DNA from: Hydrogenophaga sp.
Lineage (GTDB): Bacteria; Pseudomonadota; Gammaproteobacteria; Burkholderiales; Burkholderiaceae_C
Direction: 5' to 3'
DNA length: 64,000 nucleotides
Assembly (NCBI RefSeq): GCF_030158645.1
Contig: NZ_JAOASO010000162.1
Location: 1 to 64,000 of the forward strand
The notes below the pieces were generated by a model, which saw only the letters and a program-made list of their open reading frames with translations, made no database searches and was not told the DNA's origin. Positions 11,484-28,823 of this stretch are shown piece by piece (within the stretch, counting starts at the first letter, position 1; every line of letters starts with the position of its first letter). Both the position numbers and the translations under genes were made by a program.

Positions 11484-11684
11484 AGCATTTCCCGTTGGTT
11501 GAAGCCTGATGTTGCGCCTTTGCCCGCCCGGGCAAAGCCGGAAAAGCGGCACACACCGCCCGCAAATCGGCGCATTGGACGGGTGATCGGTGCAACTGGG
11601 CGATCGTGCAGCCGCTTTTCCGGGGCTTGGCTGTGGGCCGTGGCAAGACACTGGAGCGTCTTGCCCCAACCGCGCCAGCACCCC

Positions 11685-17375
<5,691 letters not shown>

Positions 17376-17494
17376 GCGCCGCCCGCGCGGTGTGACGAAA
17401 CGGAACAACCCCGCGTCAGGGAAAGTCCGGGCGTGTGGGTGCTGCGCCGGCAGGCCATGATCGTGCGGCCATCCACCCTCACCAGGAGACAGCC

Positions 17495-19198
17495 ATGCCG
17501 CCCGCCACCCCGCCACAGCCGGCCCATGCCCGGGGCGCCGATGCGCCCGCCCTGCTCGAACTCACCATTGGCCAGGCGCTGGTGCAGACCGCCGAATGGT
17601 TCGGCGAGCGCGAGGCGCTGGTGGTGCCGCACCAGGGCGTGCGCTGGACCTGGAGCGAACTGCTGCACCGCACCGACGCGCTGGCCGCCGGTCTGCTGGC
17701 GCTGGGTCTGCAGCCCGGCGAGCGCGTGGGCATCTGGGCGCCCAACTGCGCCGAGTGGACGCTGATGCAGTTCGCCACGGCGCGCGCCGGACTCATCCTG
17801 GTCAACATCAACCCGGCCTACCGGGCCAGCGAACTCGCGTACGCACTCAACAAGGTGGCCTGCACCGCGCTGGTGATGGCGCCCGCGCTCAAGTCCAGCA
17901 ACTGCATCGACATCCTGCGCAGCCTCGCGCCCGAGCTCGACAGCAGCTCGCCCGGTGAGCTGGTGGCCGAGCAGCTGCCGCACCTGCGCTGGGTGCTGCG
18001 CCTGGGCGACGACCACACGCCGGGCATGCTCAACTTCAACGACGTGCCGGTGTGGGCCGGCCCCGAACACCTGAGCCAGCTGGCCAACATCGGCCCCACG
18101 CTGTCACCCACCGACCCGATCAACATCCAGTTCACCTCGGGCACCACCGGCTTTCCCAAAGGCGCCACGCTCACGCACCGCAACATCCTGAACAACGGTT
18201 ACTTCGTGGGCGAGGCAATCCGCCTCAAGCCCGATGACCGGCTGTGCATCCCGGTGCCGCTCTACCACTGCTTCGGCATGGTGATGGGCAACCTGGCCTG
18301 CCTCACCCACGGTTGCACCATGGTGTATCCCTCGGAGGCGTTCGACCCGGCCGCCGTGTTGCAGACGGTGCAGGCCGAGCGCTGCACCTCGCTCTACGGC
18401 GTGCCCACCATGTTCATCGCGGTGCTGGACCACCCGCAGTTCGCCAGCACCGACCTGGGCAGCCTGCGCACCGGCATCATGGCCGGCTCGCCGTGCCCCA
18501 TTGAAGTGATGAAGCGCGTGGCCACCACCATGCACATGCGCGAAGTGACCATCGCCTACGGCATGACCGAAACCTCACCCGTGTCCACCCAAAGCGCGGT
18601 GGACGACCCGCTGGAGCGCCGCGTGTCCACCGTGGGCCGCGTGCAGCCCCACCTGGAGGTGCAGATCGTGGACACCGACGGCCAGCGCGTGGCGCGTGGC
18701 GTGGTGGGTGAACTCTGCACGCGCGGCTATTCGGTGATGCAGGGCTACTGGGCCGACCGCGACAAGACGCGGGAAGCCATCGACGCGGAAGGCTGGATGC
18801 ACACCGGCGACCTCGCCACCATGGACGACGAGGGCTATGTGAACATCGTCGGGCGCTTGAAGGACATGGTGATCCGCGGCGGCGAGAACGTCTACCCGCG
18901 CGAGATCGAGGAGTTCTATTACCGGCACCCGAAGGTGCAGGACGTGCAGGTGGTGGGTGTGCCCGATGCGCGCTATGGCGAGGCGCTGTGCGCCTGCGTG
19001 GTGCTCAAGCCCGGGCAAAGCGCCACGGCCGAGGAATTGCAGGCGTTCGCACAGGGGCAGATGGCGCATTACAAGGTGCCGCGCTACATCGAGTTCGTGG
19101 ACGCTTTTCCCATGACCATCACCGGCAAGATCCAGAAGTTCGTGCTGCGCAAGGCGATGGTGGAGAAGCTGGGCTTGCAGGAAATTGCCACCGCCTGA
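17495..19198 (+). CDS. AMP-forming fatty acyl-CoA synthetase family protein
   Basis: A 567-residue ANL-superfamily ligase that activates a carboxylic acid to its acyl-CoA with ATP. The P-loop like motif is [17 protein letters not shown], the adenine-binding segment [13 protein letters not shown], and the C-terminal hinge and lysine motifs are [20 protein letters not shown] and [14 protein letters not shown]. The profile fits medium- to long-chain acyl-CoA synthetases of the FadD3/AtuH-like type; the substrate is uncertain. AGGAGA precedes the ATG at 17495. It begins 119 bases after the hybrid kinase and has no partner genes, so it may be singly transcribed. Confidence 0.87.
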
Positions 19199-19834: not shown

Positions 19835-22057
<2,223 letters not shown>

Positions 22058-22732: not shown

Positions 22733-23638
22733 TCAGTCGGCCATCAAGGCCGGCAACGACAGTGTGCTGGTCACGTCGGGCTGGGCGGGGGGCAGCAGCC
22801 GCAAGCCGGCCTCGGTGGCCCAGCGCTGAAGATCGCCGCTGGTCTGGCTGCGCGTGATCACGCGGTTGGTGGCGTCGAGCAGTGCGGTCTGGCCCTGCAG
22901 CGCCACGAAGCCGAGGTTGATGCCCAGCGAGCGCTGGAAGTCGGTGAGCTGCACCGGGCTGGCGGGTTGCAGCAGACGTCGGGCGTCCACGGCGGTGCTG
23001 GTCATGAGCATGGCGTCCACACGACCGGTGTCGAGCGCAGCCCAGGCGTCTTCGCGCTGCCCCATTGACACCATGCTGGTGTGCAGGTAACCGCCCCGGT
23101 ACATGGAAATCAAGGTGCCTTCGAGCGTGCCGGCGACCGCGCCCACCTTGCGCCCGCGCAGGTCGGCGAGGGTGCGCACAGGGGCTTGCCCGGGGCGTTG
23201 CACGATGGACAGTGCCGTGCCCTGGTAAGGGCGGCTGGCCACCAGCGTGCCCAGCGGCACGAAGGGTCGGTCACGCTGTCGTTTGGCCCCGGGGTAATCG
23301 GGCGTCTTGAAGCGCTCGCGCGTGGGGGCGCCGAGGTCGCTGGCCAGCAGCGGGAAGCCGCTCACCAGATCGCAGATGCCGGCCGAGAGCAGGGCGTTGA
23401 CCTCGTGGGTCAGCATCGTCTCTTTCTCCACCTCGGATTCGAACGGCACCACGCGCAGCTCGCGTCCGAGGTCGCTGGCAATCGCCCGCGCCAGCAGCAC
23501 GTCAAAGCCGGCCACCTGGCCTTTGGTGCGGTAGGAGAGCGGCGCGTTGTCTTCGCTCATGCACACGGTCAGTGGCTCGGCGGCGTGAGCTGTGGTCGCT
23601 GCCAGGCACAGCAAAAGACCGGACAGGTAGCGGTTCAT
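22733..23638 (-). CDS. XoxJ-like periplasmic binding protein of quinoprotein operon
   Basis: A 301-residue secreted protein of the type 2 periplasmic-binding fold (SBP_bac_3-like), with a Sec signal ending ATTAHAAEP. The opening LTVCMSEDNAPLSYRTKGQV and the segment KVGAVAGTLEGTLISMYRGG are typical. In quinoprotein alcohol dehydrogenase operons a protein of this kind (XoxJ/MxaJ) binds the dehydrogenase and helps its maturation or cofactor loading instead of serving an ABC transporter, and no permease gene is present here. It starts one base after the cytochrome c gene ends. The ATG at 23638 (MNRYLSGLLL) is preferred to one at 23659, since the signal peptide then starts properly. Confidence 0.82.
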   Translation of the reverse strand: MNRYLSGLLLCLAATTAHAAEPLTVCMSEDNAPLSYRTKGQVAGFDVLLARAIASDLGRELRVVPFESEVEKETMLTHEVNALLSAGICDLVSGFPLLASDLGAPTRERFKTPDYPGAKRQRDRPFVPLGTLVASRPYQGTALSIVQRPGQAPVRTLADLRGRKVGAVAGTLEGTLISMYRGGYLHTSMVSMGQREDAWAALDTGRVDAMLMTSTAVDARRLLQPASPVQLTDFQRSLGINLGFVALQGQTALLDATNRVITRSQTSGDLQRWATEAGLRLLPPAQPDVTSTLSLPALMAD

Positions 23639-23639
23639 C

Positions 23640-23972
23640 TCAGGGTTCCTTGCCGCCACGTGAGCCCACGTAGGCCCAGAGCACTTGCACCGCCTGCATG
23701 TCCAGCGCGTCCTTGAACGAGGGCATGTTGCCCTTGCCGTTGACCACCGATTGCACGAAGCGGTCGGGCTGGTCCTGCGGGAAACGGCGCAGGTCGTAGA
23801 CGGTGGTGCCGGAGGTCACCATGTTGCGCCCGTGGCATTGCGCGCAGGTACGCTGGTATTGCTCGCGGCCTTTTTCAATGGCCGCCAGGTCGAAGGTTGG
23901 CGGTGGGTTGGTCTGTGCGTGCGCGGCCCCGATCAGGGCCGCGCCGCACAACCACATCAGCGGTTGTCGCAT
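23640..23972 (-). CDS. Cytochrome c, electron acceptor of alcohol dehydrogenase
   Basis: A 110-residue secreted monohaem cytochrome c. The haem site is Cys43-Ala-Gln-Cys46-His47, and the sixth ligand is Met83 in GKGNMPSF. A Sec signal covers roughly residues 1-20. Placed directly between the PQQ dehydrogenase (two bases upstream) and the XoxJ-like gene, it is by position the counterpart of XoxG or cytochrome c550, taking electrons from the dehydrogenase in the periplasm. It is shorter than typical XoxG proteins, close to the minimum class I fold. Confidence 0.88.
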   Translation of the reverse strand: MRQPLMWLCGAALIGAAHAQTNPPPTFDLAAIEKGREQYQRTCAQCHGRNMVTSGTTVYDLRRFPQDQPDRFVQSVVNGKGNMPSFKDALDMQAVQVLWAYVGSRGGKEP

Positions 23973-23974
23973 CT

Positions 23975-25642
23975 TCAGTTGAGTGAGAAGGTCCAGAGCG
24001 ATCCGCCGCCAGGGGTTTGCGACATGCGCTCGTCACCCAGCAGTGCCCACACGCCACCGGCGCCCGAGACCACGCTCACGTACTGCTTGCCTTTGTGTTC
24101 CCAGGTCACGGGCAGGCCGATGATGCCGGAGCCGGTCTGGAACTCCCACAGCTTCTTGCCGTTGCGCGCGTCCACCGCCATGAACTCACCCGTGGCCGCG
24201 CCGGTGAACACCAGGTTGCCGGCGGTGGACAGCGTGCCGGCCATGCTCGGCTGGCCCGGCCAGGCCATCTGCCACTTGCTCTTGCCGGTCATGGGGTCGA
24301 TGGCGCTCAGGTAACCATGTGGCTGGTCCTTGGGCATGTTCACGCCGCGGAAGTTCACACCCAGGTACCACTCGCCCTTTTTGTATTCGGGCTTGGCCAG
24401 CTGATAGGGCCAGCTGATGTTGAGGGTGTTGGCGTAGGCCAGACCTGTGGCCGGGTTCCACGACATCGGGGTCCAGTTCTTCCCGCCGAGCACGGAAGGA
24501 AAGATCTCGACGTCTTCACCGGCGCGCGCCTTCTTGTCGATCTCCGAGAGCACCGGGCGGCCGGTCTTGAGGTCGATGCGGTCGGCCCAGTTGACCTTGA
24601 CGTAGGGGTTGGCGGCGAGCAGTTCGCCGGTGGCCCGGTCGAGCACGTAGAAGAAGCCGTTGCGGTTGGCCTGGGTGAGCACCTTGCGGTCTTTGCCGCC
24701 GATCTTCATGTCCACCAGCATGCCGACTTCGGTGGCGTCGTAGTCGTAGGGATCGTTGGGCGAGAACTGGTAATGCCAGGCCAGCTCACCGGTTTTGGGC
24801 CGGATGGCCAGCACGGTGTTGATGTACAGGTTGTCGCCCAGGCGGGCGTTGGGATTCCATGGGCCGCCGTTGCCGGTGCCCCAGTACACGAGGTCGAGCT
24901 CGGGATCGTAGGCACCCGTCAGCCAGGTGGGTGCACCGCCCTTGAGGTGGGTGTCGCCGGGCCAGGTGTCACCACCCTTTTCGCCGGGGGCAGCGGTGGT
25001 GAAGAAGCGCCAGAGTTTCTTGCCCGTGGCCGGGTCCCAGGCGTCGATGAAGCCGCGCGTGCCGTACTCGCCACCGGCAATGCCGGTCAGCACCACACCG
25101 TTGGCGATCAGCGGGGCGCTCGTCATGGCCTGACCATCGAGGTAGTCGGCGGCCTTGCTCTTCCAGAGCTGCTTGCCGGTCTTGAGGTCGAGTGCGATCA
25201 CGTGGGCGTCCAGCGTGCTGCGGTAGAGCTTGCCGTCGAAGATCGCGGCGCCACGGTTCAGGATGCCGCAGCAGGCCATCTTGAAGACGTCCTGCGGCAA
25301 TTCGATCTCCTGCTTCCAGATCTGCCGGCCGGTGAGCGGATTGAGCGCCACGGTGGCGTTGTGCGTGGTGATGTACATCACCCCGTCGTGCACGATGGGC
25401 TGCGACTCCTGGCTCTGCGGGTTGTTCAGGCTGTAGGCCCAGGTGGGGGTCAGCTTGGCGGCGTTGCTGGTGTTGATCTGCTTGAGGGGGCTGTAACGCT
25501 GGTTGTTGTAGCCCATGCCGTAGGTCAGCACGTCGCCGGGTGTGAGGTTGTCCTTCTGCAGATCGGCGAGGCTTTGCGCCTGCACACCGCCCATGAGGGA
25601 GGCCATCATCAAACCGCTCATGATCTGGCGTTTCAGGTTCAT
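23975..25642 (-). CDS. PQQ alcohol dehydrogenase, probably lanthanide-dependent
   Basis: A 555-residue eight-bladed propeller quinoprotein that oxidises alcohols in the periplasm. A Sec signal precedes the propeller (cleavage near VQAQ, residue 23). The vicinal disulphide pair that caps PQQ is Cys124-Cys125 (KMACCGIL). Tryptophan-docking repeats are present. The catalytic base is Asp300 in PNDPYDYDATE; two residues on is Asp302. That extra Asp is the hallmark of lanthanide-using enzymes (XoxF, ExaF/PedH), whereas calcium enzymes have Ala, Ser or Thr there. The operon also codes a cytochrome c and a XoxJ-like protein. Ethanol-type or other alcohol preference is not settled by sequence; ExaF/PedH-like is my best guess. 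Confidence 0.9.
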   Translation of the reverse strand: MNLKRQIMSGLMMASLMGGVQAQSLADLQKDNLTPGDVLTYGMGYNNQRYSPLKQINTSNAAKLTPTWAYSLNNPQSQESQPIVHDGVMYITTHNATVALNPLTGRQIWKQEIELPQDVFKMACCGILNRGAAIFDGKLYRSTLDAHVIALDLKTGKQLWKSKAADYLDGQAMTSAPLIANGVVLTGIAGGEYGTRGFIDAWDPATGKKLWRFFTTAAPGEKGGDTWPGDTHLKGGAPTWLTGAYDPELDLVYWGTGNGGPWNPNARLGDNLYINTVLAIRPKTGELAWHYQFSPNDPYDYDATEVGMLVDMKIGGKDRKVLTQANRNGFFYVLDRATGELLAANPYVKVNWADRIDLKTGRPVLSEIDKKARAGEDVEIFPSVLGGKNWTPMSWNPATGLAYANTLNISWPYQLAKPEYKKGEWYLGVNFRGVNMPKDQPHGYLSAIDPMTGKSKWQMAWPGQPSMAGTLSTAGNLVFTGAATGEFMAVDARNGKKLWEFQTGSGIIGLPVTWEHKGKQYVSVVSGAGGVWALLGDERMSQTPGGGSLWTFSLN

Positions 25643-25753: not shown

Positions 25754-25770
25754 TGTTCTGACGTGGAACA
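25754..25770. promoter_or_regulatory. Candidate operator upstream of the alcohol dehydrogenase
   Basis: The inverted repeat TGTTC, seven bases, GAACA lies just after the regulator's stop and about 112 bases before the dehydrogenase start. Position and symmetry suit an upstream activator site, perhaps for the Fis-type regulator coded next to it. Confidence 0.35.
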
Positions 25771-25773
25771 GTT

Positions 25774-26973
25774 TCAGTGGCCGCCGCGCCACTCGCCCAG
25801 GCGGCGGTACAGCAGGCCGCGCGACACGCCCAGCTGGCGCGCCGCGCGCGAGACGTTGCCGTCGCAGGCGGCCAGCGTGGCTTCGATCAGCGCGCGGTTG
25901 GCGTGGTCCAGGGTCGGGATGGCGAGTGTGCCGGTGGCCGTGGGCAGCTCGGTTTCGGGCAAGGGCGCGGGCGGCGCTTCGATGGCGCCCGCCCGCGGGT
26001 TGTCCGTGCGCGCCTGGATCCACAGGGTGAGGCCGTTGGGGCACTGTCGAGGCTGGGCCTGCCCCCGGTGGGAGAGCGCCAGCAGGTCTTCCAGACCGAG
26101 GCCGAACAGGGCCTCGGCATCGGTGGGCCGGGCGGGCACGCGCTCGGTGCCGAGCAGGCTGGCGCCGGTCTGGTTGAGCCAGGCCACGCGGCCCTGGCCG
26201 TCCACCGCCGCCAGGCCTTCCAGTGGGGTGTGCAGCAGCGCCGGGCTCGACTGAAAGCGCAGCAACAGCAGCGCCGCCGACTGCGCTTCAAACAGGCGGT
26301 TTTCAATCGCGGTGGCGTAGAGCCGCACCATGGCAGCGGCGTCGAAGCGGAAGGCCTCGCCTTCGATGGAGAGATCCAGCACACCGGCCAGATCGCCGCG
26401 CGCATTGCGGATGGGCGCAGCCGCGCACTGCATGACCGAGACGCCGGTGAAGAAGTGCTCGGCGCCCCGCACCACGCAGGCCTCGCCGGTGCGGGTCACC
26501 ACGCTGGGCGCGGTGGTGCCCATGTGGTGCTCGTCGAGGTTGAGGCCCACGCGCGTCACGTGCGGCATGAGCCGGCCTTCGCCGCGCGCGGTGGGCGTGG
26601 CCTGGATCAGCACGCCGTCAGGGCCGGTGAGCAGGGCCTTGCACGGCGTGCCGGCCAGTGCGGCATCGAGCTGCTGGAGATCGTGGCTGGCGGCTTGCAA
26701 CAGCAGGCGGTTGCGTGCCAGCGCACTCGCGATGCGCGCCTTGGTCACCGGCTCCAGGTGGACCGGCTCGCAGGGGCGGCGGTTGGCCACGGTGCAGCGC
26801 ATCCACGACTGGATCACCAGCTCCGGGACCAGCCCCGAGGGGCGCTGGCCTTCGTCAAAAAACATCTCGCGCGCCAGCGCCACACGCTGCTCGGGCGTGG
26901 CGAAAAACAAACCGGCCGTGCGCGTTTGCGCCGACGGGCCGGATGTGGACGGGAGTTTGGAGGGATGTGGCAT
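25774..26973 (-). CDS. AcoR-like GAF/Fis regulator lacking the AAA+ domain
   Basis: A 399-residue cytoplasmic regulator. It opens like AcoR-family activators (LVPELVIQSWMRC), carries a GAF-type sensor near residues 85-215 (GLNLDEHHMGTTAPS and AAPIRNARGDLAGVLDLS), a PAS-like stretch (LLHTPLEGLAAVDGQGRVAWL), and ends in a Fis-type helix-turn-helix (EATLAACDGNVSRAARQLGVSRGLLYRRL). AcoR-like proteins normally have a central AAA+ domain of about 240 residues that remodels sigma-54 polymerase. Here neither Walker A nor GAFTGA is present and the protein is correspondingly short. It is coded just upstream of the dehydrogenase on the same strand and divergent from an acyl-CoA synthetase, so it probably controls one or both. 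Confidence 0.83.
   Translation of the reverse strand: MPHPSKLPSTSGPSAQTRTAGLFFATPEQRVALAREMFFDEGQRPSGLVPELVIQSWMRCTVANRRPCEPVHLEPVTKARIASALARNRLLLQAASHDLQQLDAALAGTPCKALLTGPDGVLIQATPTARGEGRLMPHVTRVGLNLDEHHMGTTAPSVVTRTGEACVVRGAEHFFTGVSVMQCAAAPIRNARGDLAGVLDLSIEGEAFRFDAAAMVRLYATAIENRLFEAQSAALLLLRFQSSPALLHTPLEGLAAVDGQGRVAWLNQTGASLLGTERVPARPTDAEALFGLGLEDLLALSHRGQAQPRQCPNGLTLWIQARTDNPRAGAIEAPPAPLPETELPTATGTLAIPTLDHANRALIEATLAACDGNVSRAARQLGVSRGLLYRRLGEWRGGH

Positions 26974-27101: not shown

Positions 27102-28823
<1,722 letters not shown>

Follow-up and report, generated by a model that had tools for sequence, protein, structure and literature searches.

A conserved three-gene unit of Hydrogenophaga sp. 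encodes a predicted lanthanide-type PQQ alcohol dehydrogenase outside the XoxF and ExaF/PedH branches

We analysed a stretch of 64,000 nucleotides from Hydrogenophaga sp. (contig NZ_JAOASO010000162.1, positions 1 to 64,000; hereafter the window) and describe a three-gene unit on its minus strand, between positions 22733 and 25642, encoding a pyrroloquinoline quinone (PQQ)-dependent alcohol dehydrogenase, a cytochrome c and a periplasmic binding protein. As a whole, the unit is best explained as an alcohol-inducible periplasmic oxidation module built around a PQQ enzyme that most likely works with a light lanthanide, a reading that we consider fairly probable. The underlying observation is real, and the assignment of the metal is sound as a prediction from sequence.

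A preliminary description of this DNA had placed three tightly spaced open reading frames here, and we found them on the minus strand as described: the dehydrogenase at 25642-23975, the cytochrome at 23972-23640 and the binding protein at 23638-22733, with intergenic gaps of merely 2 bp and 1 bp. Judged by eye, each of the three proteins starts with a signal-peptide-like stretch.

The dehydrogenase (23975..25642, 555 amino acids) is a member of the PQQ methanol/ethanol dehydrogenase family TIGR03075, against which it scored 641.5 bits (cut-off 480.05). Its best sequence match in the Protein Data Bank (PDB) was PedH (6zcv, E = 7.3e-130), and PedH was also the first Foldseek match (6zcw, TM 0.91, 41% identity) of an AlphaFold model built from 36 sequences with a mean predicted local distance difference test (pLDDT) score of 88.2. 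Because the family score, the sequence match and the fold match all point the same way, the assignment is not due to chance. The stretch DPYDYDATE with the lanthanide-type D-x-D motif D300-Y301-D302 (codons at 24737..24745, minus strand) and the adjacent cysteines C124-C125 (25268..25273, minus strand), both named in the preliminary description, are present in the sequence and in the alignment, together with the metal residues E192 and N258 and with W240. The protein is also shorter than known examples, as had been remarked; the largest gap is a loop at residue 218, with 16 residues fewer than in PedH and 22 fewer than in XoxF 6dam, and the alignment placed the absence of a further ~22 residues near position 535 relative to XoxF 6dam.

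We read the metal column from an alignment in which nine PDB sequences from HMMER output and 108 other related sequences were set beside the window protein. Position 302 is Asp in the four lanthanide references (PedH and XoxF 6oc5, 6dam and 4mae) and Ser, Thr or Ala in the five calcium references (ExaA 1flg, ADH-IIB 1kv9, ADH-IIG 1yiq, MxaF 4tqo and MxaF 1g72), ExaA having Ser where the window enzyme has D302. Among these, 1kv9, 1yiq and 1g72 we take to be calcium enzymes, while 6oc5 and 6dam were classed as lanthanide enzymes from their structure titles ('lanthanide-dependent'). E192, N258, D300 and D302 are in register with the metal ligands of PedH and of the three XoxF structures. The lanthanide or calcium label of 6zcw, 4mae, 1flg and 4tqo is stated in the available part of PMC10409515, and the ligand positions numbered for SolV in PMC8561711, likewise available in part (C104, C105, E172, N256, D299 and D301), agree with the ligand list used here. 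With its second Asp and its Glu and Asn ligands, the dehydrogenase is by sequence class a lanthanide-type PQQ alcohol dehydrogenase (PQQ-ADH). The preliminary description had named an alignment with Asp302 outside the lanthanide-coordinating column as the result that would speak against it; D302 aligned with the lanthanide Asp, and the proposal therefore withstood this comparison.

To place the enzyme among its relatives, sequences were sorted into two identity classes, group A (at least 72% identity; 35 sequences, window included) and group B (49-71%; 41 sequences), after removal of identical or contained sequences and of hits spanning 430 amino acids or less. D302 is present in all 76 sequences of the two groups (identity of at least 49%), and position 302 in 33 more distant sequences is occupied by 27 D, 3 S, 2 T and 1 N. 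Three further residues mark clade A+B: G126, following the cysteine pair, where the references have Asp; Tyr or Phe at position 299, preceding D300, where the references have Trp; and N405. Each occurs in 76/76 sequences of the clade and in 0/9 references, and among the 33 distant sequences G126 was found in two, N405 in one and Tyr or Phe at 299 in none. A first tree of 69 of the 118 sequences, including 13 of the 35 group A rows and 14 of the 41 group B rows, joined these 27 of the 76 rows in one clade with a support of 100 in the Shimodaira-Hasegawa-like approximate likelihood ratio test (SH-aLRT). A second tree, with bootstrap, held 51 of the 118 sequences and omitted the long-branch rows L055_5, L096_1, L110_0, L113_1, L108_2, L117_1 and L111_2, plus others; it recovered clade A+B, with the window enzyme inside, at 100/100, ExaA and PedH with their kin at 100/100, and XoxF/MxaF at 98/91 alone and at 100/100 with two further paralogues. 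ExaA and PedH are probably the sister group of clade A+B (92/91 in the second tree).

Both trees thus set the dehydrogenase in clade A+B, outside the XoxF/MxaF branch. Nor is it a member of ExaF/PedH (type 2b): PedH, which stands for type 2b here, grouped with a paralogue from the same genome (L002) and then with ExaA, and the window enzyme fell within clade A+B at 100/100. The lanthanide-dependent PedH shares with it the D-x-D motif, the Glu, the Asn and the cysteine pair, and is its best match in sequence and fold, yet the two are only 41% identical in the fold alignment and belong to separate clades, the window enzyme lacking the 16-residue loop at 218 and carrying G126, Y299 and N405. The reading as a lanthanide PQQ-ADH was hence supported by the Asp302 column, while the trees did not bear out a place in either of the families to which it had been likened. 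Clade A+B may be one of the PQQ-ADH types of Keltjens; we found no description of it in the available parts of PMC11996626, PMC12997753, PMC10875860, PMC10409515, PMC5487730, PMC8561711, PMC5023235 and PMC3763247.

The arrangement of the three genes is shared by relatives of the window enzyme. A scan of genome contigs gave 65 loci, 34 of them close (6 cut by contig ends and left unscored) and 31 distant (4 cut and unscored), the distant set including L096, a 33% match outside clade A+B. The order dehydrogenase-cytochrome-binding protein, with hits on the same strand, was kept in 28/28 scorable close loci and in 17/27 scorable distant ones, and in eight of the ten misses a cytochrome was present and no binding protein was found. 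The order being kept in every scorable close locus and in most of the distant ones, the three-gene unit is real and conserved. Neighbour clustering based on a home-made gene caller showed no further gene widely shared among 66 neighbourhoods; beyond the dehydrogenase, the binding protein or cytochrome and the regulator, the commonest cluster reached 13 of the 66, window included.

Several observations weigh against a lanthanide enzyme. Trp299 and Asp126, present in all nine references, are replaced by Tyr/Phe and Gly throughout clade A+B, and because of these replacements the surroundings of the metal site differ from those of every reference lanthanide enzyme. Our literature search returned no biochemical data on clade A+B among the matches listed. 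The three-part gene set had been offered as a sign of a lanthanide enzyme, and this did not hold: PedF and PedG also adjoin PedE, which is calcium-dependent (PMC12997753, available in part), so the trio is no evidence for the metal and only the D-x-D column therefore bears on it. As for the column itself, a 2025 survey built on the Keltjens scheme (PMC11996626) reports, in its available part, that in 14 of 17 PQQ dehydrogenase families the motif is found in most or all of the members, and that the membrane glucose dehydrogenase (m-GDH) carries D-x-D even though complexes of it with Ca, Mg, Zn and Sr are known. Since m-GDH carries it, the motif is not decisive, and the authors of the survey regard m-GDH as facultatively lanthanide-dependent. 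According to the same part of PMC11996626, biochemical confirmation as lanthanide enzymes exists only for methanol dehydrogenases and for alcohol dehydrogenases of type 2b; many other PQQ families merely carry the motif, and lanthanide-type PQQ-ADHs of many families had been predicted earlier.

The window enzyme might then be metal-promiscuous, or use mainly calcium or magnesium in the cell despite its D-x-D, much as m-GDH does, and positions 126, 299 and 405, where the clade differs from each of the nine references, are in keeping with this. We nevertheless consider it unlikely, given that a second Asp is present in the four lanthanide references and absent from the five calcium references, the labels of 1kv9, 1yiq and 1g72 being those that we assumed above.

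Returning to the predicted lanthanide enzyme, its two partners match broad Pfam families but reach none of the XoxJ/MxaJ, MoxG or PedF models against which they were scored. The small c-type cytochrome (23640..23972, minus strand, 110 amino acids), presumably the electron acceptor of the dehydrogenase, has one CxxCH and so one haem, matches Pfam Cytochrome_CBB3, and found its best PDB match in the cytochrome domain of the quinohemoprotein ADH-IIG (1yiq, 1.7e-7). It does not reach TIGR03872, the MoxG model that stands here for cytochrome cL of the XoxG/MoxG kind (13.8 bits, cut-off 147.8), and with 42.5 bits it stayed below the cut-off of 122 for the PedF cytochrome c550 (TIGR04494).

The third protein (22733..23638, minus strand) is a periplasmic family-3 solute-binding-like protein that matches Pfam SBP_bac_3 and measures 301 amino acids from its ATG, or 308 from an upstream GTG. 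It had been called XoxJ-like, which held for its position and broad fold only: the protein scored 18.5 bits against TIGR03871, the model of quinoprotein-associated binding proteins (cut-off 212.15), and 15.7 bits against TIGR03870, the MoxJ/MxaJ model (cut-off 258.1). When a profile of 36 binding proteins was searched, XoxJ (6onp) came 48th of 96 with 2.7e-7, behind amino-acid binders and MltF; amino-acid binders also led the fold matches of the AlphaFold model (pLDDT 92.3), and XoxJ was not among the 50 matches listed of 1715. The protein occupies the place of XoxJ or PedG and may function alike, yet by these tests it is not a member of the XoxJ or MxaJ families.

Compared with known systems, the window operon has in common with XoxF-XoxG-XoxJ the D-x-D motif and the same kinds of three genes, but XoxF lies in another branch and both window partners fail the Mox models. 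The calcium ethanol dehydrogenase set PedE-PedF-PedG has the same order of dehydrogenase, cytochrome c and periplasmic binding protein, and PedG is described as a structural relative of XoxJ despite low identity (both from the available part of PMC12997753); the window cytochrome falls below the PedF cut-off, and PedG is likened here by description only. The Mdh2-Mdh2J-Mdh2G set of Methyloversatilis universalis FAM5 likewise combines a PQQ-ADH with an adjoining solute-binding protein and cytochrome (PMC5023235, available in part); its locus tags place the binding protein before the cytochrome, unlike in the window, and this likeness too is one of description, not of sequence.

Directly upstream of the dehydrogenase, on the same strand (25774..26973), lies a gene for a transcription regulator of 399 amino acids whose N-terminal, sensory part resembles DhaR. 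Pfam identified a GAF domain and a Fis-type helix-turn-helix (HTH_8) and found no AAA+ domain in its 399 residues, the central domain of sigma-54 activators such as DhaR and AcoR, to which the protein is therefore not assigned; it is presumably sigma-54-independent. Because its sensory part resembles that of DhaR, an organic inducer would be likelier than a lanthanide. Our literature search on AcoR-type control of PQQ-ADH returned nothing usable.

Between the regulator and the dehydrogenase, at 25754..25770 on the minus strand, lies the palindrome TGTTCCACGTCAGAACA, a predicted operator. We searched for its pattern, TGTTC-N7-GAACA, within 300 bp upstream of the dehydrogenase, leaving out L095 (a partial gene). 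It was found in 12/12 loci with a close adjacent regulator, that is, the window and 11/11 relatives with regulators 44-58% identical, in 0/8 loci with a distant adjacent regulator (32-36% identical), and once (L055) among the 14 remaining loci, whose dehydrogenase gene is not preceded by a regulator hit; the regulator groups were drawn post hoc, when motif and regulator identities were known, and the loci are related and so not independent. Only two of 17,000 shuffled upstream regions contained the pattern, the shuffles preserving base make-up only. Three loci speak against the association, namely L051, L054 and L058, which carry a 45-51% identical regulator downstream of the trio and lack the palindrome upstream of the dehydrogenase. 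The whole genome has four sites, with none for a reversed-pattern control, and ten fixed bases in 3.7 Mb would be expected by chance about 3.5 times at even composition and fewer times if GC-rich; because the genome-wide count is near this expectation, we argue only for the site before the dehydrogenase. The distribution of the pattern points to a dedicated local regulator that would bind at the predicted operator.

A different palindrome, GGTGTTGCAC-N-GTGCAACACC or a shorter form of it, was seen in five of the eight distant-regulator loci (L043, L047, L048, L050 and L088), whose adjacent regulators are 32-34% like that of the window, a count made with no control. In these loci it looks as if operator and regulator had changed together.

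From these elements we propose the following working model. The dehydrogenase, a PQQ beta-propeller enzyme, would bind PQQ, with E192, N258, D300 and D302 most likely holding a light lanthanide, and would oxidise a primary alcohol, perhaps its aldehyde too, in the periplasm. The cytochrome c of the adjacent gene would take up the electrons and deliver them to the respiratory chain. The binding-protein-like product of the third gene probably helps to load PQQ or the metal, or assists maturation, a role modelled on proposals for XoxJ, MxaJ and PedG even though it comes from a different branch of the family-3 binding proteins. Finally, the regulator, whose gene lies upstream, probably responds to the alcohol or to a product of it, with the palindrome that precedes the dehydrogenase gene as its site of action.

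The neighbourhood raises the question of whether the substrate is a simple alcohol at all. Acyl-CoA ligase genes at 27102-28823 and 17435-19198 flank the operon region, and in a Methylibium locus (L078, 4739-8174) relatives of these ligases (76% and 68%) lie next to a dehydrogenase of group B and a regulator at 61%, neighbours that hint at what becomes of the oxidised product. Instead of a simple alcohol, the enzyme might act on a special compound that the ligases would channel into acyl-CoA metabolism, but any ligase hit occurred in just 6/65 loci (flanks of up to 6 kb), the only close one being that of L078, and even the commonest extra neighbour cluster reaches just 13/66 neighbourhoods, for which reason we regard such a substrate as improbable. 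That the enzyme is a true XoxF methanol dehydrogenase with XoxG and XoxJ in a hidden methylotroph is hardly credible, for although it has the same kinds of three genes and the D-x-D motif and is 38% identical to XoxF 6dam when aligned by fold, the tree already contradicts it with a separate XoxF/MxaF branch (98/91 alone, 100/100 with two paralogues), the binding protein and the cytochrome fail the Mox models, and no formaldehyde-activating enzyme (Fae) was found in the 93%-complete genome.

The search for Fae in this genome (3.7 Mb, 92.8% complete) gave no evidence of methylotrophy through that enzyme, which fits the earlier remark that the organism was not known as a methylotroph. With the dehydrogenase as query, two PQQ-ADHs were detected in it. 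The second one (L002, contig C88) is PedH-like and Asp-type (DGWDYDGVNE), grouped with PedH in the first tree, and sits 5.6 kb from PqqE (527 bits, cut-off 381), near PqqB (395, cut-off 245) and a quinoprotein relay zinc metallohydrolase (411, cut-off 300). Since this second enzyme is also Asp-type, the organism may be a non-methylotroph that needs rare earths for its PQQ alcohol oxidation. Of 67 genomes in the genus, not all of them complete, 11 had a close copy of the operon (at least 86%), and because just these carry it the unit is an accessory trait; among 398 genomes sampled across the phylum, 9 gave matches at 1e-150 or better. Named strains with members of the clade include Hydrogenophaga pseudoflava NBRC 102511 and two of the genus Limnohabitans; an H. 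pseudoflava orthologue of the dehydrogenase (L036) is 89% identical. Match coordinates and scores in two genomes of the genus (G262 and G263) coincide with those in H. pseudoflava NBRC 102511 and CZa25-1, in keeping with a window genus that is also the genus of H. pseudoflava.

We tentatively suggest, as something possible rather than probable, that clade A+B is a third lineage of lanthanide-dependent PQQ-ADHs, outside XoxF and type 2b, which would have its own cytochrome, a helper that is not XoxJ and an alcohol-sensing regulator devoid of AAA+ in place of a lanthanide sensor, in a host in which neither of the two PQQ-ADHs detected has a calcium-type site. Named strains, a fixed set of non-canonical partners, a predicted operator and a position outside both confirmed families make the clade a clean test case and add to its interest.

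Other genes were observed around the two PQQ-ADHs. On contig C88 (L119, ~4.4-20 kb) the PedH-like PQQ-ADH, pqqE, pqqB, a small cytochrome c and the metallohydrolase lie together, with a sigma-54-activator-like gene at the contig end. In the window, a large hybrid sensor kinase is encoded at 11499-17375 (1958 amino acids from the first listed start), with CHASE, several PAS, HisKA, HATPase, three receiver and two Hpt stretches. A catalase-peroxidase-like gene (Pfam peroxidase) lies downstream of the operon at 19835-22024, and a similar open reading frame adjoins the operon copy in another genome (G114, L121).

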